Shown: positions 1-30,672 of the stretch, one piece after another
Position numbering within the stretch: position 1 is the stretch's first letter
Layout of the letters: every line of letters starts with the position of its first letter
Assembly (NCBI RefSeq): GCF_000271665.2
Contig: NZ_CP010978.1
Coordinates: 1,520,501 to 1,584,500, forward strand
DNA length: 64,000 nucleotides
Reading direction: 5' to 3'
DNA from: Pelosinus fermentans JBW45
Lineage (GTDB): Bacteria > Bacillota > Negativicutes > DSM-13327
Made by a program: the position numbers and the translations under genes
The notes under the pieces: generated by a model
What the model was told of the DNA's origin: nothing
Database searches by the model: none
Seen by the model: the letters and a program-made list of their open reading frames with translations, nothing else

Positions 1-246
1 GTTAAAACGCTACTTGGGCGGCTGTTAAAAAAAAATGCTATTTCGTTTCATAAGGAGGGCCGGACGTACGTTTATTACCCTCTCGTAGCAGAGGATGAGT
101 GTGTGAAAGCGGAAAGCCAGTCTTTTTTAGAAAAGGTATTCTGCGGTGCCTTAAATGTGATGTTTGCTAAATTTTTAGAAGAACAAGAATTATCCAGAGA
201 AGAGATAGCGGAACTAAAACGTATCTTGGATCAAAAGAAAAAATAA
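1..246 (+). CDS. blaI: BlaI/MecI-family transcriptional repressor, 3-prime part
   Basis: The window opens inside this gene; 81 codons and the stop are visible. The translation carries the end of the winged helix (VKTLLGRLLKKN then HKEGRTYVYYPLVAEDEC) and the C-terminal dimerisation helices typical of BlaI/MecI. The family binds TACA/TGTA-type operators and is cleaved after the membrane sensor BlaR1 detects a beta-lactam. The next gene, 40 bp away, is blaR1 and a class D beta-lactamase follows, so this is most likely the repressor of that lactamase. Its start and own promoter lie outside the window. Confidence 0.9.
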   Translation, partial: VKTLLGRLLKKNAISFHKEGRTYVYYPLVAEDECVKAESQSFLEKVFCGALNVMFAKFLEEQELSREEIAELKRILDQKKK

Positions 247-286: not shown

Positions 287-2086
287 ATGGTACTGTATTC
301 TTTTATTCCCTGGCTGCTATACTCTTCACTTATGGGAAGCATTTTAATAGGGTTAATCATAGTCCTACGACTGGTCTTCGCAAATAGGATGGGCGTCAAT
401 CTGCAGTATCTATTATGGTTTTTAGTGATAATGAAGTTGTTAATTCCTTATACGCCTGAAAGCTCTTTAAGCGTGTTCAACATCTTTAATCATCTGAACA
501 TTCAGGTCTTATCCGGAAATTACTTTGAGACCCAGGGTAATGAGATGACAGACCAGACTACAGCAAAAGAGCTGCCGTTAACGAAAATGGTGAACGTTGC
601 TCATGATTACGCCTTATCTGTAAACAGGACTTTCCTTGACTCTAGGGAGGTTGCTGCATTTTGGTTCTGGCTAGTTGGAGTGATAACTCTTACTGTTTAC
701 TTGATTCATGGGACGATTAAGCTGCAATGTATTCTGAGGAGCACTCTCAGAGTAAATGACAGCTGTGTTATTAACTTGCTTGAGGAGTGTAAGCACAGGA
801 TGAATATCAAGGGCAATACTGTGCTGGTTGAATCACCGTTAATTCGAAGTCCAATGGTTATGGGAGCAATCAGACCGCATATTATACTGCCGGCTGGCAT
901 TAACGGTAATTTAAGCAAATCGGAATTACGATTCATTTTATTACATGAATTGGCCCATCTTCAACGTAGAGATCTTTATGTAAATTGGATTACATCTTTT
1001 TTGCAAATCATCCACTGGTTTAACCCAATTATTTGGTACGCTTTTTATCAAATGCGTCAGGATCGGGAATTGGCTTGTGATGCTTATGTGCTTTCCTTAC
1101 TAAAACCCGATGAATATAAAAGCTATGGCGCTGCGATTATTTCTTTTCTCGAAAGATACTCATATTCTGTTTATGATTACACGATAGCCGGGTTGGCAAG
1201 TGGCAGAGCCAATATTAAGAAAAGAATGGAAATGATTGCCTTGTATAAAAAAGAGACAATATTTGGGATTGTTTGGAGAATTATTCTTTTTTTACTGATG
1301 GGGTGTTTTGTGCTGACCAACGCAAAAGGAACAGCTCAGGCAGAAAAATCACCAAAGATAAGTCATAGCATTGCATATGAAGATTTGAGCGATTATTTCC
1401 AGGAATACAATGGAACTTTTGTTTTGCTTGACATGAAAAGAGATCACTATCAGGTGTATAATGATGGATACAGCAAAAAGCGCGTATCTCCGGATTCAAC
1501 ATATAAGATAATTAGTTCTTTAGTCGGTCTTGAAACTGGAGTTTTAACAGATGAAGAGACTTCATTAAGGTGGGATGGAACCATATATCCAATCCAACCC
1601 TGGAACAGAGACCAGACACTAACTTCCGCAATTTCCTACTCTGTAAATTGGTATTTTCAGAGAGTCGACTCTAGCGTGGGCGAAACTAGTATAAAGAATA
1701 ATTTAAAGGAAATTGGATACGGCAATTATGATATTTCTGGCGGAATTAATGACTTTTGGATTGAATCCTCATTAAAAATTTCTTCTCTAGAACAGGTAGA
1801 GATGCTTAAAAAACTATTTACTTATGAAATGCCCTTTTCTCGAAGGAATATAGACATTGTCAAAAAAATAATCAAAGTGTGGGAGCTGGACAAGGTAACT
1901 TTATACGGGAAAACTGGCACTGGAACTGTGAATGGAAATAACATTAATGGGTGGTTTATAGGGTGTGTAGAAAATGAAGGAGAGAATTATATTTTTGCTA
2001 CGAATATTCAAGGAAAAGAGGGCGCAGATGGGGCAAATGCCAGGAGAATAACGCTATCAATCCTTAAAGATAAAAATCTTTTATAG
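287..2086 (+). CDS. blaR1: BlaR1-type antibiotic sensor (M56 metalloprotease fused to class D-like sensor)
   Basis: 599 residues, in the normal BlaR1/MecR1 size range. The N-terminal half has membrane helices (about 8-30, 41-55, 121-141 and 327-345) and the M56 zinc site HELAH at 220-224, with a further ligand motif ELACDA from 261. The C-terminal domain from about 370 is the outside penicillin-sensor fold: STYK with acylation Ser404, an SVN triad, YGN and a KTGTG box near the end. The known role of the family is to be acylated by beta-lactam outside and then trigger cleavage of BlaI inside. The start is ATG after GGGAGG. The sensor domain closely resembles the secreted enzyme encoded next. 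Confidence 0.93.
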   Translation: MVLYSFIPWLLYSSLMGSILIGLIIVLRLVFANRMGVNLQYLLWFLVIMKLLIPYTPESSLSVFNIFNHLNIQVLSGNYFETQGNEMTDQTTAKELPLTKMVNVAHDYALSVNRTFLDSREVAAFWFWLVGVITLTVYLIHGTIKLQCILRSTLRVNDSCVINLLEECKHRMNIKGNTVLVESPLIRSPMVMGAIRPHIILPAGINGNLSKSELRFILLHELAHLQRRDLYVNWITSFLQIIHWFNPIIWYAFYQMRQDRELACDAYVLSLLKPDEYKSYGAAIISFLERYSYSVYDYTIAGLASGRANIKKRMEMIALYKKETIFGIVWRIILFLLMGCFVLTNAKGTAQAEKSPKISHSIAYEDLSDYFQEYNGTFVLLDMKRDHYQVYNDGYSKKRVSPDSTYKIISSLVGLETGVLTDEETSLRWDGTIYPIQPWNRDQTLTSAISYSVNWYFQRVDSSVGETSIKNNLKEIGYGNYDISGGINDFWIESSLKISSLEQVEMLKKLFTYEMPFSRRNIDIVKKIIKVWELDKVTLYGKTGTGTVNGNNINGWFIGCVENEGENYIFATNIQGKEGADGANARRITLSILKDKNLL

Positions 2087-2230: not shown

Positions 2231-2289
2231 CATGTTTAAGGAGATTGCGTACGGCACATTATAAATCAACGAGTAAAGGAATGGTTGAA

Positions 2290-3096
2290 GTGAAAAGATG
2301 GTTTTTAGTATTACTTACCGTTGTTCTTGTTAATTGTGGCTTAATGGCTAGCACAAATGCGGCGAATCTCGTGGTAAAGGAAGACCTTGGTAAGTACTTT
2401 GAGGGATTTACCACAGGGACGTTTGTTATGTACGATGAGGCTAACGATCAGTATATAGTCGTTAATGAGCCCCAAAGTAATCAACGCTTGTCACCGTGTT
2501 CCACCTTTAAAATTTATAATTCACTTATTGGATTGGAAACTGGTGTCTTAGACCAAGAAGATGTATATACCTTATTCAAATGGAATGGGACGCAATATAC
2601 ATTTCCTACGTGGAACCATGATCAAACATTGGCGTCTGCCACAAGGGATTCAGTTGTTTGGTATTTCCAAGAACTTGCGTCCCGGGTTGGGGCGAAAAGG
2701 ATGCAGGCAGGTCTTGATAAGCTAGAGTACGGGAATAGGGATATTTCTGGAGGCTTGACAACCTTCTGGCTGCGGTCTTCATTACAGATTTCGGCGCGTG
2801 AACAAGTGGACTTGCTGTACAGGCTATACTCGGGGAAATTGCCGGTATCTCCCCAAAATGTGGAGATAGTGAAAAAGAACATTACTTTGTCAGAAAATGA
2901 TTATATGCGATTCATGGGTAAAACCGGTTCGGGATTTCAAGATGATAAATGGATATTGGGGTGGTTTGTTGGCTGTGTCGAAAAGCAAGGAAATCGCTAT
3001 TTCTTCGCTACCAATATTCAAGCGCCAGATGGCGCAATCGGCGGAAAGGCCAGAGAGATCACAAAATTAATCTTAAAAGACCTGCAAGTTTTATAG
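2290..3096 (+). CDS. Class D (OXA-like) beta-lactamase, secreted
   Basis: I place the start at GTG 2290, not at the in-frame TTG 2245, because AAAGGA lies 9 bp upstream and translation then begins with a normal signal peptide (MKRWFLVLLTVVLVNCGLMA). The product is 268 residues. Class D landmarks are present in order: STFK (acylation Ser and carbamylatable Lys) near residue 60, SVV near 120, YGN near 150, and KTGSG before WFVGC. Lys in STFK and the SxV triad favour a true class D hydrolase over a penicillin-binding protein. It sits downstream of blaI-blaR1 with its own BlaI-type operator, so expression should be beta-lactam inducible. The closest known relatives by pattern are chromosomal class D enzymes of Gram-positive bacteria; the substrate range cannot be read from sequence. 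Confidence 0.88.
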   Translation: MKRWFLVLLTVVLVNCGLMASTNAANLVVKEDLGKYFEGFTTGTFVMYDEANDQYIVVNEPQSNQRLSPCSTFKIYNSLIGLETGVLDQEDVYTLFKWNGTQYTFPTWNHDQTLASATRDSVVWYFQELASRVGAKRMQAGLDKLEYGNRDISGGLTTFWLRSSLQISAREQVDLLYRLYSGKLPVSPQNVEIVKKNITLSENDYMRFMGKTGSGFQDDKWILGWFVGCVEKQGNRYFFATNIQAPDGAIGGKAREITKLILKDLQVL

Positions 3097-3159
3097 TAGG
3101 ATTCTTCAAGTTACCATGGTTTTAAAAAAAATAAAATAGGTCTTCAATTTGGAACTCCA

Positions 3160-3201
3160 ATACCCCTATTCGTAGGTAAATAAGCCTGCGAATAGGGGTA
3201 T
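3160..3201 (+). promoter_or_regulatory. Long hairpin overlapping the glycosyltransferase ribosome site
   Basis: A 13-bp perfect inverted repeat (3160-3172 with 3189-3201, extended inward by AGG/CCT) forms a stable hairpin. There is no T-run after it, so it is a poor terminator. The only SD-like bases for the ATG at 3209 (AGGGG, about 10 bp upstream) lie in its right arm, so the hairpin could hide the ribosome site. Confidence 0.5.
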
Positions 3202-3208
3202 CGTTATA

Positions 3209-4147
3209 ATGGAAAAGAGAGGTAAACGAGTATGGGAGGCGATTGATATAAACAAAATATATTTTGATGCATCGGTTATTGTGCCAGTATTTAACCAGAT
3301 GGAATCACTTAGAACGACGTTGCAATATTTTTCTTTTCAGCAGTATCCTTCCAACAAATATGAGATTATAGTAGTTGATGATGGGTCAACGGATGGTTTA
3401 ATGGAAAGTATTGAAGAAGATGCATGGCCATCGTTGGCTTGTAAGATTAAATACATACGCCAAGAGCATCAAGGCAGAGCAGTGGCAAGAAATACTGGAG
3501 TCGCTGCAGCTAAAGGTGAACGATTAATATTTTGTGATGCCGATCGTTTCCCAGATGTAAATTTTGTTAAGTACCATGTTGAAAGGACTTTAGGTTCTGG
3601 AAGCGTAGCAATTATAGGTTGTCCTTGGGAATTTTTCGGATCAAGAAAATACTTATCAACTTCCAATAAGGATACTCAGCTTATTCAAAAGTATTCAAGG
3701 CAACCAATGTATTATACTAGAATACAAAAACTATATGATTTAAATGGTTATACGAATTCAGGAATAGCGTGGGCTTCTTTTCTTATAGGCAACTCCAGCG
3801 TTAGACGAAAGGATTTTTATAAAGTAGGTGGTTTTGATAAAGAATTTAAGTTCTGGGGATTTGAGCACTTTCAATTTGCTTTGCGCTTACAAAAATGTGG
3901 TGTTACTTTTCAAAACATGTATGACGTTTCAAACTTTCACTTACCTCATAGAATAGAGGCTGGGTACCAGGAGGCAATGATAGAAGCCGGCACACAACTA
4001 CTAAAAAAAATAAATCCGCATTATAATTTCGATAGTTTCAAAAATTATTGTTTTGGGGAAATTTCGCTACAAGAATTTGAACTACGTTTTTGTGGCACCT
4101 TGTCATCGCAGTTAAAGGATTTGGAGCCAGTGCTTATTAAATGGTGA
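3209..4147 (+). CDS. Family 2 glycosyltransferase
   Basis: 312 residues. The N-terminal GT-A fold shows ASVIVPVFNQ, the nucleotide-binding VVDDGSTDG (57-63), and a DxD metal site as CDAD (109-112). The C-terminal part has GGFDKEFKFWGFEHFQFA, the GxD...WGxED-like block found in galactosyltransferase-C type GT2 enzymes. The family transfers a sugar from a nucleotide sugar; donor and acceptor are unknown. No signal peptide or membrane helix is visible, so it should be cytoplasmic. It lies upstream of a GNAT gene and three radical SAM genes on the same strand, which suggests it glycosylates the product of that cassette. Weak SD bases are buried in a hairpin. Confidence 0.85.
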   Translation: MEKRGKRVWEAIDINKIYFDASVIVPVFNQMESLRTTLQYFSFQQYPSNKYEIIVVDDGSTDGLMESIEEDAWPSLACKIKYIRQEHQGRAVARNTGVAAAKGERLIFCDADRFPDVNFVKYHVERTLGSGSVAIIGCPWEFFGSRKYLSTSNKDTQLIQKYSRQPMYYTRIQKLYDLNGYTNSGIAWASFLIGNSSVRRKDFYKVGGFDKEFKFWGFEHFQFALRLQKCGVTFQNMYDVSNFHLPHRIEAGYQEAMIEAGTQLLKKINPHYNFDSFKNYCFGEISLQEFELRFCGTLSSQLKDLEPVLIKW

Positions 4148-4236
4148 GCCTACGCCGAGCCCCGTTCTTTCGTTCGGAATTTGGGCAAGTAACACCATTG
4201 TTTGCCAAAATAAGTTTTAGAGGAGGTAACTAGATT

Positions 4237-4800
4237 ATGGTATTGAGACAAAAGGATTTTACAATTATACAGGCATCAGAAAAAGAGATACCTTTGGCTT
4301 TACAGTTTCGACAAATTCTTTTAAAAGAAATGGGAATTCCTAGAGAGTTACTGATAAATAGCATGAGCGAGGTGCTCCTTGCATTTTACCATCAAGAATT
4401 TAATGTAGGGCGAATGCGGCATTATATTGCATATAGTCAGGAAAATCAACCAGTCGCTATTGCAGGGGCAGTGATAAAAAATGATTTTCCATATTGTTTG
4501 CTTAATCCCGGTTACTATGGTTGGATTATGGATGTTTATACACTTCCGGACTATAGAGGAAAAAAGCTTGCCACTAAACTTTTAGAATTGACTAATCAAT
4601 GGCTTGTAGAAAAAGGCGTGCATGAGGCAAAATTGATAGCAGTGGAAAATGATGCAAGAAGACTCTATGAAAATTTGGGATATAGAGCTACTTTTGACAT
4701 GAGTTTAAATTTGACAGAGTACGAGAATTATAATGAAATCATTGAACAGAGAGTTTCGGGGGTAACTAAAGTGGCGAAAAAATGTCTAGAGACCAGCTAA
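4237..4800 (+). CDS. GNAT-family N-acetyltransferase
   Basis: 187 residues with the GNAT core: a strand ending in GWIMDVYTLPDYRG followed by the acetyl-CoA loop RGKKLATKLL (a variant of RxxGxG/A), then AVENDARRLYENLGYR, the usual motif B. The family moves an acetyl group from acetyl-CoA to an amine; the substrate is not evident. The start is ATG with GAGGAGG upstream. It is 89 bp after the glycosyltransferase and 68 bp before the first radical SAM gene, all co-directional, so a joint transcript is likely. It could acetylate an aminosugar or a metabolite made by the cassette. Confidence 0.85.
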   Translation: MVLRQKDFTIIQASEKEIPLALQFRQILLKEMGIPRELLINSMSEVLLAFYHQEFNVGRMRHYIAYSQENQPVAIAGAVIKNDFPYCLLNPGYYGWIMDVYTLPDYRGKKLATKLLELTNQWLVEKGVHEAKLIAVENDARRLYENLGYRATFDMSLNLTEYENYNEIIEQRVSGVTKVAKKCLETS

Positions 4801-4868
4801 TCAAAGTCTAAAGATCTCAGAATTTGAAAGTTAATAAATTTTTTTATATATAAAGGGAGGCGGAAAAT

Positions 4869-6464
4869 TTGATAGACTGCTTTTTCATTGGCCATAACGG
4901 AATAAATATTTCAAAGCAGTTGCAAATAACAGCTGCAGCATATGGCAGAAACTCATATTATTTTAGGGATGCATTAAGTGCTAGGTATATAAAATATAAC
5001 GGCAAGCGCTATACTCAATATCAAATTTATAACTTATTTTACAATAATAATGATGCGCTTAGTGCTACTTTTGATCATGCGACATTTCAACATAATTTTA
5101 ACAGCGCCATTGCTATACTTGGTAGTTATGTGCATAAAAAAGGGTTGTCGATTGATTATGTACACTCTTTTAATATGGACAAGCAAGAGCTAGCTAAGAA
5201 ACTTGAAAAGAATAATATAAGGGTAATAGCAATACCAACAACTTTTTACTTGTCATTATATCCTATCTTGGAAATTGTATACTTTATAAGAAAATATAAT
5301 AAAACAGCGAAGATTATTATTGGAGGTCCATACGTCTTAAATCAGGTAAAAGGTCAAAGTCCGGCTAATCTGCAAAAAATATTTCAAGCGATAGGCGCCG
5401 ATGTTTATATATGCAGTAATGAAGGCGAATATGCTTTAAGCGAAGTGGTCCGAGCATTCCACGATAATACTGAACTTTATGAAATTAACAATATTTTTTT
5501 TAGGCAAGAAGACAATACCTACGGTCATAACACGCTGACGCTGGAAGAGAATAGTAGTGAAGATAAGCATATTAATTGGAGCTTATTTACAGGTGGATTG
5601 ACCCAATATGCCAGCATAAGAACAGCTGTATCTTGTCCATTTTCTTGTGCTTTTTGCGGACTTCCGATTACGGGAGGAAAGTATAGACAATTAAGCGTTG
5701 CCGAAATTGAAGATCAATTAGATACACTAGCAAAAAGCAACAAAGTTTCAGGCTTGTTTTTTATTGATGAAACATTTAATTACCCACCAGAAAGATTCAA
5801 AGAGATTTTACGGATGATGATAAAAAATAATTACAATTTTAAATGGGAATCAGAATTTCGCTGCCAGTTTGCAGATCGGGAAATGATTGAAATGATGAAA
5901 GAAAGTGGTTGTGTCCAAGTGTTTTGTGGCATTGAGTCGGGAAGCCAGCAAATATTGAATAATATGAATAAAAAAGCCATAGTTGAAGAATACAAAAAAG
6001 GGCTGGGCTTATTACATGAATATGACATTCTAACGAACGCTTTAATTATTATTGGATTCCCTGGAGAAACCTATGAAACTTATAAAGAAACATACAACTT
6101 TTTGCAGGAAACTAAACCTACTTTTTTTAGAACTCACAGATGGTATTACGATCATGAAACGCCGATATATGATAAGAGAAAGGAATACAACATTACGGGG
6201 AATGGATATGAATGGGCCCATTCTACTATGGATGCAGATACTGCACATAATCTTACAGATGAGTTAACTATGTCTGTGAATAGCTCAATACATATTGCCG
6301 ATTATCCGATCTCTTTCTTCTTATATGAGCAAGGATTTAGTGTTGAAAAGATTAAGCATTTTATGGAGACTTTTAATAAATGTGTAAATGAAAGAATAAA
6401 AAATCCTGATTGTGAAGAGGTTAGCCAAGAACGGGTAGAAGAGTTGAAATACGCGTTAAGATAA
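4869..6464 (+). CDS. Cobalamin-type radical SAM protein 1 (PhpK-like)
   Basis: 531 residues from a TTG start after GGGAGGCGG. Order: a short N-terminal block (IDCFFIGHNGINIS), a Rossmann-like B12-binding region (IPTTFYLSLYPILEIV to IIIGGPYV, about 115-165), then the radical SAM barrel with the 4Fe-4S motif C256-PFS-C260-AF-C263 and the AdoMet region GIESGSQQILNNMNKKA, then a roughly 150-residue tail. I see no DxHxxG cobalamin ligand. The opening resembles the PhpK family of B12 radical SAM P-methyltransferases, but the reaction here cannot be assigned. It is the first of three tandem paralogues. Confidence 0.85.
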   Translation: MIDCFFIGHNGINISKQLQITAAAYGRNSYYFRDALSARYIKYNGKRYTQYQIYNLFYNNNDALSATFDHATFQHNFNSAIAILGSYVHKKGLSIDYVHSFNMDKQELAKKLEKNNIRVIAIPTTFYLSLYPILEIVYFIRKYNKTAKIIIGGPYVLNQVKGQSPANLQKIFQAIGADVYICSNEGEYALSEVVRAFHDNTELYEINNIFFRQEDNTYGHNTLTLEENSSEDKHINWSLFTGGLTQYASIRTAVSCPFSCAFCGLPITGGKYRQLSVAEIEDQLDTLAKSNKVSGLFFIDETFNYPPERFKEILRMMIKNNYNFKWESEFRCQFADREMIEMMKESGCVQVFCGIESGSQQILNNMNKKAIVEEYKKGLGLLHEYDILTNALIIIGFPGETYETYKETYNFLQETKPTFFRTHRWYYDHETPIYDKRKEYNITGNGYEWAHSTMDADTAHNLTDELTMSVNSSIHIADYPISFFLYEQGFSVEKIKHFMETFNKCVNERIKNPDCEEVSQERVEELKYALR

Positions 6465-6494
6465 TATATAAACATGGTAAAGGGGAGGATTAGT

Positions 6495-8093
6495 TTGATT
6501 GATTGTTTATTTATTGGGCATAATGAGATGGATTTAACAAAAAACAGACAGTTATTGAGATTAAAATATGGGCACAACTCTCATAACTATACAGAGACAA
6601 ATAAATTTAATTTAGGGTACATCAAATATAAAGGTAAATTGCATACACCTATACATATTTATAATGCATTAAAAAGTGAAAGCGTCAATAGGGCTTCAGC
6701 GGGAAGTGCGAATATTGGAGAGATATTCAGCTTAACCATAGCATATTTAGCCTCTTATTTGCACAAGCGGGGATTTAGTTTTGATTATATAAATTCGTTT
6801 AACGAAGATAGAAACCTATTAGTGCAAAAACTGCAAGAAAATAATATAAGAACCATTATAATACCAACAACATATTACCTATCTCCCATACCTATAGTAG
6901 AAATAATGCAAACGGTTAAAAAATATAATAATACAGCAAAAGTCATAATTGGGGGACCGTTTATATTCAATCAAGTTAGAGATCTATGTAATCAAGAGAT
7001 GCAAAAATTATTGACAAGAATTGGAGCGGATATATACATATATTCTATCGAAGGTGAAGAGGCATTAGCACGAACTATAAGTGCAGTGAAGAATGGATTG
7101 TCATTAAATAATATTAATAACGTAATTTATAATCATGCAGGAGTATATCAGTTTACATCGGTGCAAAAAGAGGAAAATAGTTTGGATGAGAATCCAGTTA
7201 ATTGGAAGCTGTTTTCAGAGAGTTTAAACAGTAATATAAATATTAGAACGTCAAATTCATGCTTATTTTCTTGTGCGTTCTGTTCTTTCCCAAAGAGTTC
7301 AGGCAAATATCGAATAGCTAATTTGGAAACGGTTGAAAACGAATTGAATATGTTGAGAGATATTGGTAATGTAACGGCTATTAGCTTTATTGATGATACG
7401 TTTAATTTTCCACCAGACAGATTAAAAAACATGCTGAGGATGATGATAAAAAATAAGTATAAATTTAAATGGAATTCCTTTTTTAGATGTCAACATGCCG
7501 ATCAAGAAATGATAGAACTAATGCAAGAAAGTGGATGTATTCAAGTTTTTTGTGGGATAGAATCTGGGAATCAACAAATATTAAACAATATTAATAAAAA
7601 GACGAGTCTCGATAAATATGAAGAGGTTCTTGAAATGCTTCATAAACACAATATCATGACTGTAGCTTCCTTCATTGTAGGTTTTCCAGGAGAAACTCAT
7701 GATACTTATTTTGATACTTTTAACTTTATTGAAAGAACAAAACCTACATTTTTTAGAGCGAGGCTATGGTGGTACGATAATAATGCTCCAATTTACGAAC
7801 ACAGAGAAAAATTTAAGTTAGTAGGCAAAGATTATGAATGGTCGCATGAAACAATGGACTCCAATACGGCTCAGGGTTTAGCGGATAACATGTTGTTATC
7901 CATAAAGAATTCAACCCATGTTGCAGATTATCCAATTCCATTTGATTTAGTTAATAAAGGCTTGAGTAAAGAACGGGTTGTGGACTTTATGAAAGCTTTT
8001 AATATGTCTGTAAGAGAGGTACTGCTTAATAAATATCAGATTAAGGAAAATCCAAAAATTATCGAGAAACTTCGTAGGATAATTGTCGGATAG
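6495..8093 (+). CDS. Cobalamin-type radical SAM protein 2 (PhpK-like)
   Basis: I place the start at TTG 6495, after GGGGAGG and in the same position as its neighbour (MIDCLFIGHNEMDL), not at the in-frame ATG 6474; the product is 532 residues. The B12-binding-like region ends in VIIGGPFIFN. The cluster motif is C256-LFS-C260-AF-C263, exactly where it sits in protein 1. GIESGNQQILNNINKK and VGFPGETHDTYFDTF follow. It begins 30 bp after the previous stop. It is clearly related to both neighbours yet well diverged, so the three genes are not recent copies and probably do different steps. Confidence 0.85.
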   Translation: MIDCLFIGHNEMDLTKNRQLLRLKYGHNSHNYTETNKFNLGYIKYKGKLHTPIHIYNALKSESVNRASAGSANIGEIFSLTIAYLASYLHKRGFSFDYINSFNEDRNLLVQKLQENNIRTIIIPTTYYLSPIPIVEIMQTVKKYNNTAKVIIGGPFIFNQVRDLCNQEMQKLLTRIGADIYIYSIEGEEALARTISAVKNGLSLNNINNVIYNHAGVYQFTSVQKEENSLDENPVNWKLFSESLNSNINIRTSNSCLFSCAFCSFPKSSGKYRIANLETVENELNMLRDIGNVTAISFIDDTFNFPPDRLKNMLRMMIKNKYKFKWNSFFRCQHADQEMIELMQESGCIQVFCGIESGNQQILNNINKKTSLDKYEEVLEMLHKHNIMTVASFIVGFPGETHDTYFDTFNFIERTKPTFFRARLWWYDNNAPIYEHREKFKLVGKDYEWSHETMDSNTAQGLADNMLLSIKNSTHVADYPIPFDLVNKGLSKERVVDFMKAFNMSVREVLLNKYQIKENPKIIEKLRRIIVG

Positions 8094-8107
8094 GAGGGGG
8101 AAATGCG

Positions 8108-9718
8108 GTGAATCAGGAAGTAGACTGTTTATTGATCGGGTATAACCAGTTCAATATGCAAACACAGAGAAAGCTTTTGCGACTTAGTGTTGGGCAAAAT
8201 TCAAAAACATATAGAGAAGCAAATACGTCAAACTTAAGTTTTATCGAGTATAAAAAGAAACTGTATTCACCATCACAACTATATCAGACTTTCAATAGTG
8301 ATATAAATGATGGAGAAGAAAACGAGCCATATTATCCGCCTAATATGGTAGCTAAGTCTTTCAGCCTGGCGGTAGCTTATTTAGGTACTTATATAAATAA
8401 AAGGGGAATATCTTTTGATTATATAAATTCCTTTGTTAGTGAAAAGGAGTATATTGCTAATAGACTCAAGGAGGATAGTATTGGCTGTGTTGTCATCCCC
8501 ACCACTTTTTATATTTTGCCCTTCCCGATTATTGATATAGTTTCCTTTATTCGTAAATACAGCGAGAACGTAAAGATTATTATCGGAGGGCCGTATGTTT
8601 TTGGACAGGCGCACTCACTTAACGAAGAAGATTTACAAAAATTATTTAAATCTATAGGCGCGGATATATATATATATAATACTGAAGGAGAGTTTGCGCT
8701 AGGTGAGGTGATTCATTCTATCAAACATAATTTGCCGCTTGGAAATATAGATAATATATTTTATAAACAAAATGATAGGTATGTATATACTCGTTATTCC
8801 CAGGAAAATAATCAACCTAATAACAACTTTGTTGATTGGAATTTATATAGCGACAGAATATGTGAGTTCGTCAATGTAAGAACATCAATATCATGCCCAT
8901 TTTCATGCAGTTTCTGTGGTTCATCAATGTATGCGGGGCAATATCGAACAGCAAGTATTGAGATTGTCGAAAAAGAGCTAAACACGTTGAGCAATAAAGT
9001 TTCTGGGGTGTTTTTTTCAGATGAAACGTTCAATTTTCCTCCAGAAAGATTTAAAGCTATGCTCAAAATGCTTATACGAAATAAATACAAATTTAAGTGG
9101 GTCTCGCAATTAAGAGCCCAATACATAGACCGAGAAACTGTTGAATTGATGAAAGAGAGTGGCTGTGTACAAGCGCTTTTCGGCATAGAGTCAGGAAATC
9201 AGCAAATTCTTGATAATATGAATAAAAAAGCCACTGTGAAAAAGTATCGTGAAGTACTTTCACTATTAAATGAATATGACATAATGAGTACTGCGTCATT
9301 AGTTGTTGGTTTTCCAGGAGAAACTTATGAAACCTATCGCGATACATTTAACTTTATTGAAGAAGCTAAACCAACATTCTTTAGAACTCATATGTGGTAT
9401 TATCAACATGGAGCGCCCATTAACAATGATAAGGAAAAATTTAATATTAAAGGAGCGGGATACAATTGGTCGCATAAGACTATGGACTCAAATACTGCGT
9501 ATGAATTATCTAATAATTTGTTTTTCTCGATAAAAAATTCTATTTATGAGGCAGACTGCTCATTTCCCTTTCAATTAGCGTGTAAAAAAATTAGTAATAA
9601 TAAAATCAAAAATTTCATGTCTACTTTTTCATTATGTGTAAAAGAAGGACTTACGGCTCAAGGCAAAAAAGAAGTGAGTAATGAGCTAATTGAGAAGCTT
9701 AAGAGTGCTTTGAAATAG
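8108..9718 (+). CDS. Cobalamin-type radical SAM protein 3 (PhpK-like)
   Basis: 536 residues from a GTG start with AGGAGGGGG 7 bp upstream, 14 bp after the preceding stop. It shares the plan of the other two: N-terminal VDCLLIGYNQFNM, B12-binding-like region with IPTTFYILPFPIIDIV and IIIGGPYVFG, cluster motif C263-PFS-C267-SF-C270, GIESGNQQILDNMNKKA, VGFPGETYETYRDTFNF, and a tail with the block TMDSNTAYELSNN. The motif is intact, so it should be active. It closes the cassette. No precursor peptide or export gene is visible, so whether the substrate is a peptide, a phosphinate, a lipid or a sugar is unknown. Confidence 0.85.
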   Translation: MNQEVDCLLIGYNQFNMQTQRKLLRLSVGQNSKTYREANTSNLSFIEYKKKLYSPSQLYQTFNSDINDGEENEPYYPPNMVAKSFSLAVAYLGTYINKRGISFDYINSFVSEKEYIANRLKEDSIGCVVIPTTFYILPFPIIDIVSFIRKYSENVKIIIGGPYVFGQAHSLNEEDLQKLFKSIGADIYIYNTEGEFALGEVIHSIKHNLPLGNIDNIFYKQNDRYVYTRYSQENNQPNNNFVDWNLYSDRICEFVNVRTSISCPFSCSFCGSSMYAGQYRTASIEIVEKELNTLSNKVSGVFFSDETFNFPPERFKAMLKMLIRNKYKFKWVSQLRAQYIDRETVELMKESGCVQALFGIESGNQQILDNMNKKATVKKYREVLSLLNEYDIMSTASLVVGFPGETYETYRDTFNFIEEAKPTFFRTHMWYYQHGAPINNDKEKFNIKGAGYNWSHKTMDSNTAYELSNNLFFSIKNSIYEADCSFPFQLACKKISNNKIKNFMSTFSLCVKEGLTAQGKKEVSNELIEKLKSALK

Positions 9719-9721
9719 GGT

Positions 9722-9953
9722 GAGCTCTTACGAAGTTGAGCCTTATGATATCCTATTTCTGCGAAATTAGGTAAATTGCCTGGGATACCATACATATATG
9801 GATTTTGACCGATAATCTATAGTTTTTCATAAACTGCATCCCTAAATTCTTTGGCGGCCGGAGGGTAGTTCATGGCATCCACATAAAAGTCTACGATTTT
9901 GCTACGGCATTAGGAGTTATATTAACCTGATACTTGCTGTCCTGACTGTTCAT
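9722..9953 (-). pseudogene. RelE/ParE-type toxin remnant
   Basis: On the minus strand an ATG at 9953 with AAAGGAG 6 bp upstream opens a reading of SKYQVNITPNAVAKI, then after a one-base shift VDFYVDAMNYPPAAKEFRDA, then a TAG, then IIGQNPYMYGIP. This pattern fits the RelE/ParE toxin fold. A frameshift, an in-frame stop and a lost C-terminus make it nonfunctional. It overlaps the end of the antitoxin remnant, the normal arrangement of such operons. Confidence 0.6.
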
Positions 9954-10226
9954 GTATATGCTCCTTTAGGTACTGGTCAATATCAGTCATCGCTGCATCC
10001 AATAGCAGGGATTTGCCTTGTCGGATTTCGGATTCGGAGCGTAGCAAATTTTCATACATGCTGATTTTTGCTGATAGCTTTTCGTAATGGCTGCTGCTCA
10101 TGATAACCAGTGATTTGATCCATTTTTAGTAAGATGGACAGGCGTATCTTGGTCAATCGCAAAGGCTTCTACATCGACCATTCTTTTAGACAATTCACTA
10201 ATGGGACGGATAATGGTTTTAATCAT
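9922..10226 (-). pseudogene. Phd/YefM-type antitoxin remnant
   Basis: The ATG at 10226 gives MIKTIIRPISELSKRMVDVE and AFAIDQDTPVHLTKNGSNH. After a one-base shift the reading continues as LVIMSSSHYEKLSAKISMYE and ends in a leucine-rich tail and a TAA. This matches the Phd/YefM antitoxin plan: DNA-binding N-terminus, the PVHLTKNG strand, and a toxin-binding helix. The single frameshift near 10110 disables it unless it is a sequencing error. The partner toxin remnant follows directly. Confidence 0.65.
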
Positions 10227-10309
10227 GCTTCCACCTTCTTTACTGATTTTTCTACCCTGAATTTCGGAAAATATAAAGAAAATCTACCGAAATAAGATGT
10301 ATCGACGCG

Positions 10310-10348
10310 AAAAGGCAGCACCTTCCCGAAGGAATGGTGCTGCCTTTT
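10310..10348. terminator. Bidirectional terminator
   Basis: GGCAGCACC pairs with GGTGCTGCC, extended by TTCC/GGAA around a CGAA loop, with A-rich and T-rich flanks. It lies just past the 3-prime end of the decayed TonB-receptor fragment on the minus strand. Confidence 0.7.
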
Positions 10349-10367
10349 GAAGTATATTGTGTAGTAT

Positions 10368-10660
10368 CTACCAGCGGCGTGTGGGCCGGCCGGTAGTTGG
10401 TTCAAAGGTATTACCGTAACGGTCGGAGCCGGAAAATCCTTCAAAGGAATCGTCATAACTGATGTAGGGAAATAGTCCGTTGCCGGCGTCATAAACCAGG
10501 CTAAGAAGACGGCCGGTGAAGGCATTTTGATCAATGATGGTACGTACGCCGTTCAGGCGGTTCATGGTGACGCTGTCGTAGCGGTCGTACCGGCCTCCAG
10601 CAATCGCCGTCCATCGCTTTCCGAACTTGAGCTGGTCCTCTGCAGATACCAGCCGGCTTG
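10368..10660 (-). pseudogene. TonB-dependent receptor fragment
   Basis: About 95 codons on the minus strand read EDQLKFGKRWTAIAGGRYDR, then NAFTGRL, LVYDAGNGLFPYISYDDSFE and SGSDRYGNTFEPTTG. These are typical beta-strands from the barrel of siderophore (FhuA/FpvA-like) receptors. The plug domain and most of the barrel are missing at both ends. The stretch is visibly richer in G and C than its surroundings, which suggests imported DNA. It is a direct sign that the host has, or had, an outer membrane. Confidence 0.65.
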
Positions 10661-10667
10661 CTTTGCA

Positions 10668-10917
10668 GCCCATGTGCGGGGGAATTGTATGGACGATCCT
10701 TTTCAGCTTGCGGAGGCTTTGCAGTGGCAAAGTCAGCATTATAATACACCTGATCTGGTGGTGGCAATTGAGCAGTTAAAGTACGCCCTACGAGGTGAGG
10801 CGCGTATACCCCACCTGTATTATGAGGGGAAGGCTATGAAAGGGCGGGAAGTTTGCAGTAGCGTTTAAAAAAACCTATGGAATGACGCCCCGCGAGTTTA
10901 AAAAATCCTTATTTTGA
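10668..10917 (+). pseudogene. AraC-family regulator fragment with internal deletion
   Basis: The plus strand reads DDPFQLAEALQWQSQHYNTP and IPHLYYEGKAM, like the middle of a PchR/YbtA-type AraC regulator. After a shift near 10845 it reads AVAFKKTYGMTPREFKKSLF and then TGA at 10915, the classic end of the AraC helix-turn-helix domain. The sensor N-terminus and most of the DNA-binding domain are gone. Such regulators often control the divergent siderophore-receptor gene, and a receptor fragment does lie next to it in the opposite direction. Confidence 0.6.
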
Positions 10918-11077
10918 TGTTAGAAAGGTGTTATAAATACTCCAAAAGGATATATTTATGCCCTTTTATATCACGACATCATTTGTGTTATCATATTAAT
11001 AATGCTGGTTATCTTGCCTTTGTAAGGGGGAGGCAGGTTTGGCTAGAGCCGCTTATACGAGCTAGAATGCTTGACGA

Positions 11078-11182
11078 ATGAAAGAACGGGTTGTTACTAA
11101 TAAAGATCATCAACTTTCAGCTGATGTAGCGTACTGCATAATTGAAAAAGGCTATGGAGGGGAAAATTTTTCAAGCATTTAA
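11078..11182 (+). other. Small open frame or decayed coding sequence before a Fur box
   Basis: A 34-codon frame (MKERVVTNKDHQLSADVAYC...) ends inside the Fur-box region. Just upstream, AAGGGGGAGG (about 11022-11031) precedes a TTG frame that stops after eight codons. I recognise no family. The strong ribosome site with only broken frames behind it suggests another decayed gene. Confidence 0.25.
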
Positions 11183-11210
11183 TGATAATGATAATTATTA
11201 TTAAATGCTT
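11173..11210 (+). promoter_or_regulatory. Fur box inside a longer palindrome
   Basis: GATAATGATAATTATTATT at 11184-11202 matches the classic 19-bp Fur consensus at 17 positions. It is flanked by the inverted arms AAGCATTTAA and TTAAATGCTT. It lies about 120 bp upstream of the broken PepSY membrane gene, consistent with former iron regulation. Confidence 0.75.
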
Positions 11211-11331
11211 TCTGCCTGACAATGCTTGAAAAAATAGGTACCCATGCCGCTGCAAAATTTACGTCGCAATACGTTGAACCATTTACATAGGATTGTTCTG
11301 GTAATGCAGGCAGGAGGAGCTTTTCGAAACA

Positions 11332-12618
11332 ATGAAATACTGGTATACAATTCACAAATGGGCAAGTTTGATTTGTGCAGTTTTTCTGTTGAGTATGTGT
11401 GCAAGTGCCTTGCCCCTGATTTTGGGACGGGAGATAACGGCATTTAATCAAGTTAGTGTATCTACGATTCAGAAGCATCCTTAGTGAATGCAGCAAAGCT
11501 ATCTGTGGGCAAGCAAGCGGAAATAGTGCTGGAACGTTACCCCGGTTATAATTTGCGTGCTGTCTATCTGGATCATGAAAAGCATATTAATGGCTTTTCC
11601 TTGCGGTCTCAAGACAAGGGCTATGATTATATTCGTCTAGATTTGAATACAGCCCGATTCATAAGACGGTCTAATGAACAAGTGAGGTATGAGGTGATTC
11701 CGAAGTTTATGATTTGCCTATGGGATGCATGTTGATATGTATCTCGGGTCATTCGGCAGGAACTTGTTCGGAGCGATGTGCGGATTGAGCGTTGTAGCTT
11801 TGCTCGGCATCTGGTTGTATGCCCCTTTTATGAAAAACATCTCCTTTGGGACGATTCGTTCTTCTCATCGGCGTATTTATTGGATGGACTGGCATAAATT
11901 ACTGGGGATTGCCACACTTTCCTGGGCCGTATTATTAAGTTTAAGCGGATTTATTTTTATATTTGCTGGTCCGGTTCATAATGCTTGGAACGAAAGCATA
12001 CGCAAGGAATACTTGATTGATTATCAAGACAAGCCCTTTCCTGTCCAGCGTATTTCTATTGATGAGGCAATGGAAGTGACCCAAGCCGCTTTGCCTGATC
12101 GCAGAATAACGGGAATCGAAGTGCCTCAAGAAGATGGGAAAATGCGCTGGCATTATACGGTTTGCACACAGGGGGAAGGTTGGGACGCGCACTTGAATAA
12201 GCCTGTCTGGGTTGATGCGTCTACGGGAAAGGTTACCGCCGTCATTCAACAGCCTTGGTATATCCAGATGCTTTCTATGGCTAATCCAGTTCACTTTAGC
12301 AATCATGACACCTTGCCGTTGAAAATCTTATGGTTTATTACGGAGGCCTTGACCTGCATTATGATCATCACCGGCATTTATGCCTGGTTTGTCAAATTCA
12401 GGCCGAACAAAGGCAATGCGGCGAATAAGCTACAGGCTAAATCTGTCCCTCCGGTACGGCAGTCCTCCAGGCAAATCTGGCTGCTGCCTGTGGTTATTAT
12501 ATTGATTACGTTGTTTAGAATTACCGCGCCTCTGGCTGGCAAGGAATGGAGTACCATATCGGCTGTTGCTCTGGCAATACCCCTTGTGCTCACCGGATAT
12601 TACTGGCTGCGCAGTTAA
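11332..12618 (+). pseudogene. PepSY-associated membrane protein broken by frameshifts
   Basis: Three consecutive pieces in different frames make one PepSY-TM protein: 11332-11484 (MKYWYTIHKWASLICAVFLL, first membrane helix, ending in TAG), 11484-11735 (VNAAKLSVGKQAEIVLERYP, a PepSY-like domain), and 11725-12618 (297 codons with helices near FGAMCGLSVVALLGIWLYAP, WHKLLGIATLSWAVLLSLSG and two more, plus a second PepSY-like segment). The first break is explained by one missing base near 11481; the second near 11720 is more complex. The family sits in the inner membrane and often accompanies siderophore uptake, possibly as a ferric reductase. The upstream Fur box fits. A sequencing error could explain one break but less easily both. 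Confidence 0.7.
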
Positions 12619-12640
12619 TTACGGTACGAAAGGAAAAAGA

Positions 12641-12690
12641 ACCATTGCCGCACCTTATGATAAAAGGATGCGGTAATGGTTTTTTTTTAT
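12641..12690 (+). terminator. Intrinsic terminator
   Basis: ACCATTGCCGCA pairs with TGCGGTAATGGT and is followed by nine T. It ends the PepSY unit. Confidence 0.85.
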
Positions 12691-12710
12691 AAAAAGTATG
12701 AGTTGGAGAA

Positions 12711-12858
12711 GAACGTTAAACACAGAGGGCACAGAGAATGCCGAAAACAGTGATGAATCGCGAAGAGGCGAAGAAATGCGAAGGACGCGAAGGGGTATTA
12801 TAGATAGTTCTAGTCTTTGTGTCTTCGCGTTTCAAAATGTTTTATTTTTTAGCTAGGG
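12711..12858. repeat. Dispersed palindromic repeat, mixed copy
   Basis: Contains AACACAGAGGGCACAGAGA, then GCGAAGAGGCGAAG and GCGAAGGACGCGAAGG, then the complementary CTTTGTGTCTTCGCG. It is a diverged member of the family seen best at 21.5, 28.7 and 32.8 kb. The 625-bp gap from 12619 to 13242 otherwise holds only a terminator before it and the Fur promoter after it. Confidence 0.65.
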
Positions 12859-13089
12859 ACAAGTTTATAGTATTTTGTTTTTATCTGCAGCATTTCATTT
12901 TGCAATGAGTCAAATGCCTTTGACTAAGAGAATATGCAGGATTTAGGACTTCATAAGCTGTTGAAGTTTAATGTCTAGGTGGAGCTGTGAGGTGCTGTTA
13001 TAATCAAATTGTAGCAAGCGAGGTGTTTTGTTTCTAAGAGAGCGTACTATTGGCTTTGGAAAAAATACCAAGATATTCGAAGACTTTAA

Positions 13090-13659: not shown

Positions 13660-13774
13660 GTTCATTCGCTGTACTACAGAGGATGAATGATTATAAGGAA
13701 AATCCATTTTCTTAGCACCCTATGTCCTTGGTATTAAGGGAAAAGAAGCGGTCGGGAATCTGTCTTTTTAGGAT

Positions 13775-13848
13775 AATAAATGGAATGAAACCTCTTACAA
13801 AAGTGGATACTTTGGAAGAGGTTTCATTCCATTTATTAATTATTTTTT
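13775..13848. terminator. Very strong bidirectional terminator
   Basis: A perfect 22-bp inverted repeat (13775-13796 with 13816-13837) is followed by a T-rich tract. It separates the convergent TonB-like and SulP genes. Confidence 0.85.
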
Positions 13849-30359: not shown

Positions 30360-30672
30360 AAGAAAAAACGCCCCTCTAAAAAGAGGGACGATAGTGACCG
30401 TGGTACCACCCAAATTTGATCTTAGACAAAATAAAAAGCGATACCGTATAAGGGACGAATCACCGCGGTACCACCCTAGTTCGATCATAAGATCAGCTCT
30501 ATGTCTGTAACGTAGACAATACGGCAAGACCTACTGTGTTTTTCAGCCTGCAGTTCGGGAAGGAACTTCATTGTGTATTTTCAACTAGTTTACACCAGCC
30601 ACTAGCTCTCTGCATGAAAAGGGCACAATTACTTTTTTCCGTCATCACCAATATCGTATATAGTATTGTTAC
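30360..30672 (-). promoter_or_regulatory. T-box riboswitch leader with two T-box/antiterminator motifs
   Basis: Read on the minus strand. One stem I region (AGTA, AGAGAG, GGCTGGTG) is followed by AGGGTGGTACCGCGG (about 30478-30464) and, 60 bp later, by GGGTGGTACCACGG (about 30412-30399) with terminator CCCTCTTTTTAGAGGG and a T-run. The text between the two T-boxes is too short for a second stem I. The specifier region reads GAAGTTCC, so Val (GUU) or Phe (UUC) are candidates; I cannot decide. It controls the symporter gene. Confidence 0.85.

Follow-up and report, generated by a model that had tools for sequence, protein, structure and literature searches.

Five genes near the start of a 64,000-nucleotide stretch of the Pelosinus fermentans JBW45 genome (the window, C1:1520501-1584500, where C1 is NZ_CP010978.1, the single 5.38-Mb contig) are the 3' end of a larger gene cluster that the window edge cuts; they are not a free-standing cassette. 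They encode a family 2 glycosyltransferase (GT2b), a GNAT acetyltransferase and three PhpK-like B12 radical S-adenosylmethionine (SAM) enzymes (PhpK6-8). We consider it likely that they close a ~48-kb carbapenem-type biosynthetic island, whose PhpK-like enzymes elaborate a carbapenam or its side chain. Judged by homology, this is a carbapenem-type cluster in an unexpected lineage, and its product would be a carbapenem-type compound.

The island (C1:~1482305-1530218) has low GC and starts ~38 kb upstream of the window. A divergent arm on the minus strand encodes ArgJ-2, a condensation-domain protein and a LoaP antiterminator. The main arm, on the plus strand, opens with an AMP-ligase, a second glycosyltransferase (GT2a), an acyl carrier protein (ACP1), two alpha/beta hydrolases, CarB-type and CarA-type proteins and MetK. 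Next come ThnN-like, ThnO-like (aldehyde dehydrogenase fold family) and ThnL-like (B12 radical SAM) proteins and PhpK1-4, followed by a pyridoxal phosphate (PLP) decarboxylase, an MGT-type glycosyltransferase, a 155-aa protein that matches no Pfam family, HlyD, two ABC exporters and a thioesterase. A ProB-like kinase, ArgJ-1, ACP2, PhpK5, OXA1, BlaI, BlaR1 and OXA2 precede the 3' end formed by GT2b, GNAT and PhpK6-8.

The genes for the predicted core enzymes overlap by 4 bp. Among solved structures, the island crotonase matches CarB best (218.9 bits), then a CarB homologue (195.9 bits) and the next crotonase (92 bits), and a tree of 12 rows places it in the CarB clade, apart from four generic crotonases (100/99). 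The CarA-type protein scores 95.1 bits with CarA, 81.3 with beta-lactam synthetase (BLS) and 43.6 with AsnB. It carries Tyr and Glu at two alignment columns that we take to form the catalytic dyad in BLS; BLS, Streptomyces cattleya ThnM and Pantoea CarA have the same residues. These columns hold Glu/Lys in E. coli AsnB, Met/gap in an Acinetobacter protein, Leu/Gln in Rhodococcus fascians and Val/Glu in S. decoyicus. We infer that the CarB-type enzyme forms carboxymethylproline and that the CarA-type enzyme closes the beta-lactam to give a carbapenam. Simple carA-carB-carC clusters, such as that on the Pantoea sp. At-9b plasmid, likewise have adjacent CarA and CarB and both dyad residues; unlike them, the island has many extra genes and no proline dehydrogenase/ferredoxin pair, and this genome has no CarC-family (PF02668) match.

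The island also shares genes with the thienamycin cluster of S. cattleya (thnA-V). On the S. cattleya megaplasmid, relatives lie at the positions of ThnE (CarB, 38% identity), ThnM (CarA, 30%), ThnN (46% over 358 aa), ThnO (33%) and ThnL (39% over 452 aa), and the ThnM, ThnN, ThnO and ThnL positions are side by side there too. The region of that record carries no gene annotation, and the thn names are assigned here by gene order. In a search of 72,556 plasmid records, S. cattleya scores 370 bits with the ThnL-like query and the next match 190 (all seven are listed); with the ThnN-like query, S. cattleya scores 389 bits and the best other 178 among the 12 of 28 records listed. Neither Pfam nor NCBIfam recognizes the ThnN-like protein at the thresholds applied, and we name it from S. 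cattleya. The ThnL-like protein contains CxxxCxxC and scores much like S. cattleya ThnL against the HpnR model (216.5 versus 222.2 bits). ThnL forms a thioether bond (PMC13331322). When S. cattleya open reading frames (ORFs) of 150+ codons across 40 kb were compared with 35 main-arm proteins, five matched at >100 bits and two more, both radical SAM ORFs, scored 87 and 39 bits; none of the others matched at E<=1e-3, in a comparison of main-arm proteins with longer ORFs that divergent relatives could escape. The island differs from the thienamycin cluster in its eight PhpK-like enzymes, ACPs, glycosyltransferases and OXA/BlaR1 genes.

A TIGR04479 search identified eight full-length PhpK-like proteins in the genome, all encoded within C1:1498806-1530113 by a tandem group of four genes, a solitary gene and the three window genes. 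All eight contain CxxxCxxC, and PhpK1-4 directly follow the ThnL-like gene after a gap of 15 bp. In a tree of 42 rows (8 from this genome and 34 from other species, one 168-aa fragment being dropped) the eight form a single clade (100/99), so the genes multiplied within this line of descent; PhpK1 pairs with PhpK6 (97/89) and PhpK2 adjoins PhpK3. One radical SAM protein gave a PADLOC match to PDC-M51A (60.9 bits), which we took as generic.

We modelled one of the three window enzymes, PhpK7. The full-length model (pLDDT 91.3, 36-row alignment) matches TsrM (Z 23.9, 423 aligned), MgmA, AprD4, CysS, OxsB and TokK along the greater part of the chain. It also matches MiaB/RimO, which are non-B12 enzymes, at Z 20.6-22.0, so full-length fold matches alone do not show a B12 domain. 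The N-terminal 248 residues were therefore considered separately, modelled from 30 of the 36 alignment rows (L032, L033, L034, L036, L038 and L040 left out; pLDDT 85.9). All nine Foldseek matches at E<=0.001 are TsrM, CysS, MgmA or TokK chains. By Z score the order is TsrM 17.5, OxsB 16.4, CysS 16.1, TokK 15.7 and MgmA 13.6, then <=11.6, and the first 11 structure matches are all B12 radical SAM entries. The modelling shows a B12 radical SAM fold for this protein, with a predicted Rossmann-type cobalamin domain preceding the radical SAM domain. An earlier note on this DNA had described an N-terminal cobalamin-binding-like region in all three proteins; the PhpK7 model agrees, whereas the Pfam B12-binding profile (cut-off 32.1) reaches only 19.5 and 23.2 bits in two of them and the third is not listed.

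The PhpK-like enzymes probably act as methylases. ThnK carries out two sequential methylations and TokK three (PMC8992657), and OxsB is not a methylase (PMC13331322); because the fold is common to non-methylases such as OxsB, other activities are possible, although methylation is the most probable one. The genome has two metK copies, compared with one in each of eight relatives with a match (none was found in G072, a genome that is 83% complete), and the second copy fits heavy SAM use. The island proteins share with the PhpK family a full-length profile match, CxxxCxxC and, as modelled, the B12 radical SAM fold; they differ in falling below the curated cut-off and in lacking any phosphinate context that we could find.

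Comparison with same-genus genomes delimits the island. G071 and G072 are colinear with this genome up to C1:1481639 and C1:1481691, respectively, and again from window position 13027. Between these ends lie ~1 kb in G071, ~3 kb in G072 and ~52 kb here, and the island is thus absent at this site in both. GC is 30.8% in the divergent arm, 32.5% in the main arm to PhpK5 and 33.8% from GT2b to PhpK8, against flanks of 42.5% (left) and 39.4% (right). The island has apparently been acquired horizontally; no donor was found. Paralogue pairs link its parts: GT2a, near the 5' end, is 54% identical to GT2b over 306 aa, ACP1 is 62% identical to ACP2, and the two ArgJ genes are 67% identical at the DNA level. 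The features discussed here are as follows.

C1:1482305-1483510, minus strand: ArgJ-2, divergent arm
C1:1483600-1484886, minus strand: condensation-domain protein, divergent arm
C1:1484921-1485484, minus strand: LoaP antiterminator, divergent arm (202.4 bits, cut-off 125)
C1:1514254-1514823, plus strand: ProB-like kinase, 189 aa (91.5 bits, cut-off 186; matches the first half of the glutamate 5-kinase model only)
Window 1-246, plus strand: 3' part of a BlaI-type penicillinase repressor (ORF C1:1520363-1520746; PF03965, 124.2 bits)
Window 287-2086, plus strand: BlaR1-type beta-lactam sensor (NCBIfam blaR1_generic, 621.6 bits, cut-off 400)
Window 2245-3096, plus strand: OXA2, OXA-type class D beta-lactamase-like protein (PF00905, 124.3 bits; bla_class_D_main, 242.8 bits)
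Window 3160-3201, plus strand: hairpin between the bla genes and GT2b (17-position stem, RNA fold)
Window 3209-4147, plus strand: GT2b, family 2 glycosyltransferase, paralogue of GT2a (PF00535, 82 bits)
Window 4237-4800, plus strand: GNAT acetyltransferase (PF00583, 49.8 bits)
Window 4869-6464, plus strand: PhpK6, PhpK-like B12 radical SAM enzyme (TIGR04479, 534.3 bits; CxxxCxxC at 256)
Window 6474-8093, plus strand: PhpK7, PhpK-like B12 radical SAM enzyme (TIGR04479, 562.8 bits; CxxxCxxC at 263; structure models)
Window 8108-9718, plus strand: PhpK8, PhpK-like B12 radical SAM enzyme, final gene of the island (TIGR04479, 513.7 bits; CxxxCxxC at 263)
Window 9738-10297, no strand: nearest DNA to the right of the island that closely matches a same-genus genome (93.6% to G071, at a non-colinear site there)
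Window 10900-13026, plus strand: right copy of a ~2.1-kb direct repeat (left copy C1:1477275-1479416, 89.5% identical; the pair flanks the island)

The repeat holds a PepSY-like gene, and the right copy appears disrupted because its ORF is 297 aa, whereas the left copy and G071 have one of 430 aa. Between the island and this copy (window 10223-10868), short ORFs resemble, by eye, pieces of a TonB receptor and an AraC-type regulator and look like decayed remnants. Just right of the island (window 13774-13838) is a 28-bp inverted repeat with a 9-base loop, which is also present at the equivalent place in G071. Farther along, the minus strand carries a T-box leader (window 30448-30654; Rfam RF00230, 137.2 bits).

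OXA1 (C1:1519481-1520305) and OXA2 are 74% identical, both match PF00905, and they bracket BlaI/BlaR1 inside the island. The bla_class_D_main score of OXA2 is just below the cut-off of 250, and none of the 25 families listed exceeds its cut-off. Relatives of OXA2 at 79-86% occur in three of nine other genomes of the family (G074, G076 and G069, the G069 protein at 79%); the G076 relative (L075, G076:C2:54466-55296) has one in-frame TAA. At the DNA level, the BlaI-BlaR1 stretch (76-77%) and OXA2 (81%) match one block in G074 and one in G076, without the cluster. In this genome, the sequences next to the G074 block have their matches at other places, and the bla genes of the block match only inside the island. 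The bla genes look like a resource of the lineage that now lies inside the island, with the OXA gene duplicated. We predict that OXA/BlaR1 provide self-protection; the S. cattleya thienamycin cluster carries the beta-lactamase ThnS (PMC8115136).

From these predicted functions we propose the following pathway. Glutamate semialdehyde/pyrroline-5-carboxylate (P5C) would be supplied, perhaps by the ProB-like kinase and the ThnO-like reductase of the island. The CarB-type crotonase would combine malonyl-CoA and P5C into carboxymethylproline, from which, as its conserved residues suggest, the CarA-type synthetase would make the carbapenam. A C2 thioether could be formed by the ThnL-like enzyme, as with ThnL. 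The eight PhpK-like enzymes, with SAM from the extra MetK, may then take the place of ThnK and modify the carbapenam or its side chain, by methylation or in some other way. Family assignments suggest tailoring by the ACPs, AMP-ligase, PLP decarboxylase, GT2a/GT2b, MGT and GNAT, with export via HlyD/ABC and self-protection via OXA/BlaR1. The 189-aa ProB-like kinase may feed P5C or be a remnant.

This gene combination is rare at the thresholds used. CarA (E<=1e-20) and TIGR04479 (E<=1e-60) each hit this genome only among 380 class genomes, and the CarB profile (E<=1e-50) hit this one only among 398 sampled phylum genomes, with overlap between the two sets; the thresholds are strict, and divergent copies could be missed. 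In other species we found 30 PhpK-like loci in 25 genomes and searched their flanks (up to 10 kb, several of them short; tblastn E<=1e-4). More than one PhpK-like gene lies within the stretch fetched at two of the 30. CarA gave two weak matches (27-28% identity) across the 25 genomes, and the loci contain a single crotonase match (L019, 44 bits). The earlier note had named a lack of co-occurrence of GT2 and GNAT with the radical SAM genes as evidence against its reading, and the outcome divides: outside this genome it goes against the note, relatives of GT2a, GT2b and GNAT being at none of the 30 loci, and within this genome it does not, a GT2 paralogue being present near the far end of the island. 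No PhpK-like match was found on plasmids at E<=1e-30. Among the titles and abstracts listed from open-licence literature, we found neither a carbapenem cluster of this kind nor PhpK with carbapenems, which is weak evidence of novelty. To our knowledge, from a search that was not exhaustive, the number of B12 radical SAM genes is unmatched among carbapenem clusters.

Several observations weigh against the carbapenem assignment. The CarB clade includes two Bradyrhizobium proteins, and the CarA query found nothing in their 20.7-kb locus; CarB-like sequence alone therefore does not prove a carbapenam pathway. A CarA tree, poorly resolved, groups the island protein with S. decoyicus, Acinetobacter and R. 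fascians rows (93/92, long branches) and not with ThnM, and those three rows all lack the Tyr. No close ThnK relative was identified: among the 35 island proteins compared, the best score for the S. cattleya ORF that we assign to ThnK is 39 bits. Relatives of the CoA-trimming and oxygenase genes (ThnG/Q, ThnH/R/T) were not found in the same ORF comparison. PF02668 (TauD/CarC-family oxygenase) has no match in the genome at E<=0.001, in a search that recovered its E. coli control and covered this oxygenase family only. All eight PhpK-like proteins score under the TIGR04479 cut-off of 600 (513.6-562.8 bits). Adenylation-type genes lie near 24 of the 30 PhpK-like loci of other species, and CarA near none. 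The bla genes, with a native-like GC of 38.2%, are carried by relatives without the cluster, and their position may be coincidence.

Some of these points would suit two adjoining pathways within the island, one building a carbapenam core (CarB/CarA/ThnNOL-like) and the other providing the PhpK-like enzymes with an ACP-bound scaffold of their own. The adenylation-type neighbours elsewhere favor such a division, as do the two ACPs, AMP-ligase, condensation-domain protein and thioesterase of the island. We regard it as somewhat unlikely, given that PhpK1-4 adjoin the ThnL-like gene and that paralogue pairs bridge both island ends.

The CarA grouping also brings in loci on R. fascians (pFiD188, L050) and Acinetobacter (L048) plasmids, the former of which we take to be the att locus. 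Like the island, they encode CarB, CarA, an AMP-ligase and ArgJ, and the island might by analogy make a signal or other non-carbapenem product. This is distinctly unlikely, as the island CarA keeps the Tyr and Glu that their CarA proteins lack, they include a TauD gene, a family without a match in this genome, and no PhpK-like or ThnL/N/O relatives were found in the plasmid stretches read. The gene order at L048/L050 is CarB-CarA-TauD-ligase with ArgJ nearby, and CarA without the Tyr and Glu suggests that these loci perhaps do not make beta-lactams.

The earlier note had instead proposed an independent five-gene cassette acting on a new scaffold or one encoded elsewhere. Its description of the genes stands: five plus-strand ORFs (window 3209-9718) with the GT2, GNAT and radical SAM identities given, and CxxxCxxC starting at residues 256, 263 and 263. 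The gaps, claimed as 14-90 bp, measure 89, 68, 9 and 14 bp, one being slightly off. PhpK-type B12 radical SAM enzymes in a natural-product pathway are also supported, with glycosyltransferase and acetyltransferase tailoring probable; the self-contained cassette is not. The tight spacing, the strong hairpin just before GT2b and the bla genes of other base composition that separate the five genes from PhpK5 speak for independence. However, the five genes share paralogy with the upstream half, low GC and absence from G071/G072, and the scaffold genes supposedly missing (CarB, CarA, ThnN/O/L-like) lie ~25-33 kb upstream of GT2b, within the island and on the same strand. We consider an independent cassette very unlikely. 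A P-methylating phosphinate pathway, which the note had linked to the PhpK-like proteins, is hardly credible: TIGR04479 is the best NCBIfam match of the window proteins (514-563 bits), but all eight proteins fall under its cut-off and family scans of island ORFs named no phosphonate enzyme, PEP mutase not having been searched genome-wide.

The hairpin (17-position stem with one T-G, no T-run) lies in a region, 3100-3215, that folds at -40.6 kcal/mol (z -6.49), and its core sequence is at no other intergenic site of the scanned stretch. Possible roles are as an insulator or as an element that responds to LoaP. Scans for sigma-70 promoters and terminators found no more than shuffled sequence gave (39 versus 40.9 and 2 versus 5.9, respectively) and are uninformative on transcription units; Rfam gave no match in the island at gathering level. 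The acetogen marker CdhC has no match in the genome, and we therefore dropped the idea of an acetogen such as Sporomusa.

Returning to the carbapenem-type island, we tentatively suggest, as a possibility, a complex-carbapenem pathway that is independent of oxygen. After ring closure by CarB/CarA, nine B12 radical SAM enzymes would handle epimerization, the C2 thioether and the side chain, and no 2-oxoglutarate oxygenase would take part. The product might then be a heavily methylated, possibly glycosylated carbapenem unlike any known from Streptomyces, made by a pathway horizontally transferred into this lineage. The characterized carbapenem gene clusters named in a 2025 paper come from Streptomyces (PMC12482188), and ring epimerization and desaturation are steps of thienamycin biosynthesis that a 2018 review counts as unsolved (PMC6097109). 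A distant cluster with ThnE, ThnM, ThnN, ThnO and ThnL relatives, lying in a genome that has no CarC-family oxygenase, offers a small common gene set for testing these two steps. With eight PhpK-like paralogues next to a carbapenam core, PhpK-type chemistry would reach beta-lactams as well, and a new carbapenem scaffold may be in prospect; the cluster would open oxygen-free carbapenem chemistry to direct testing.

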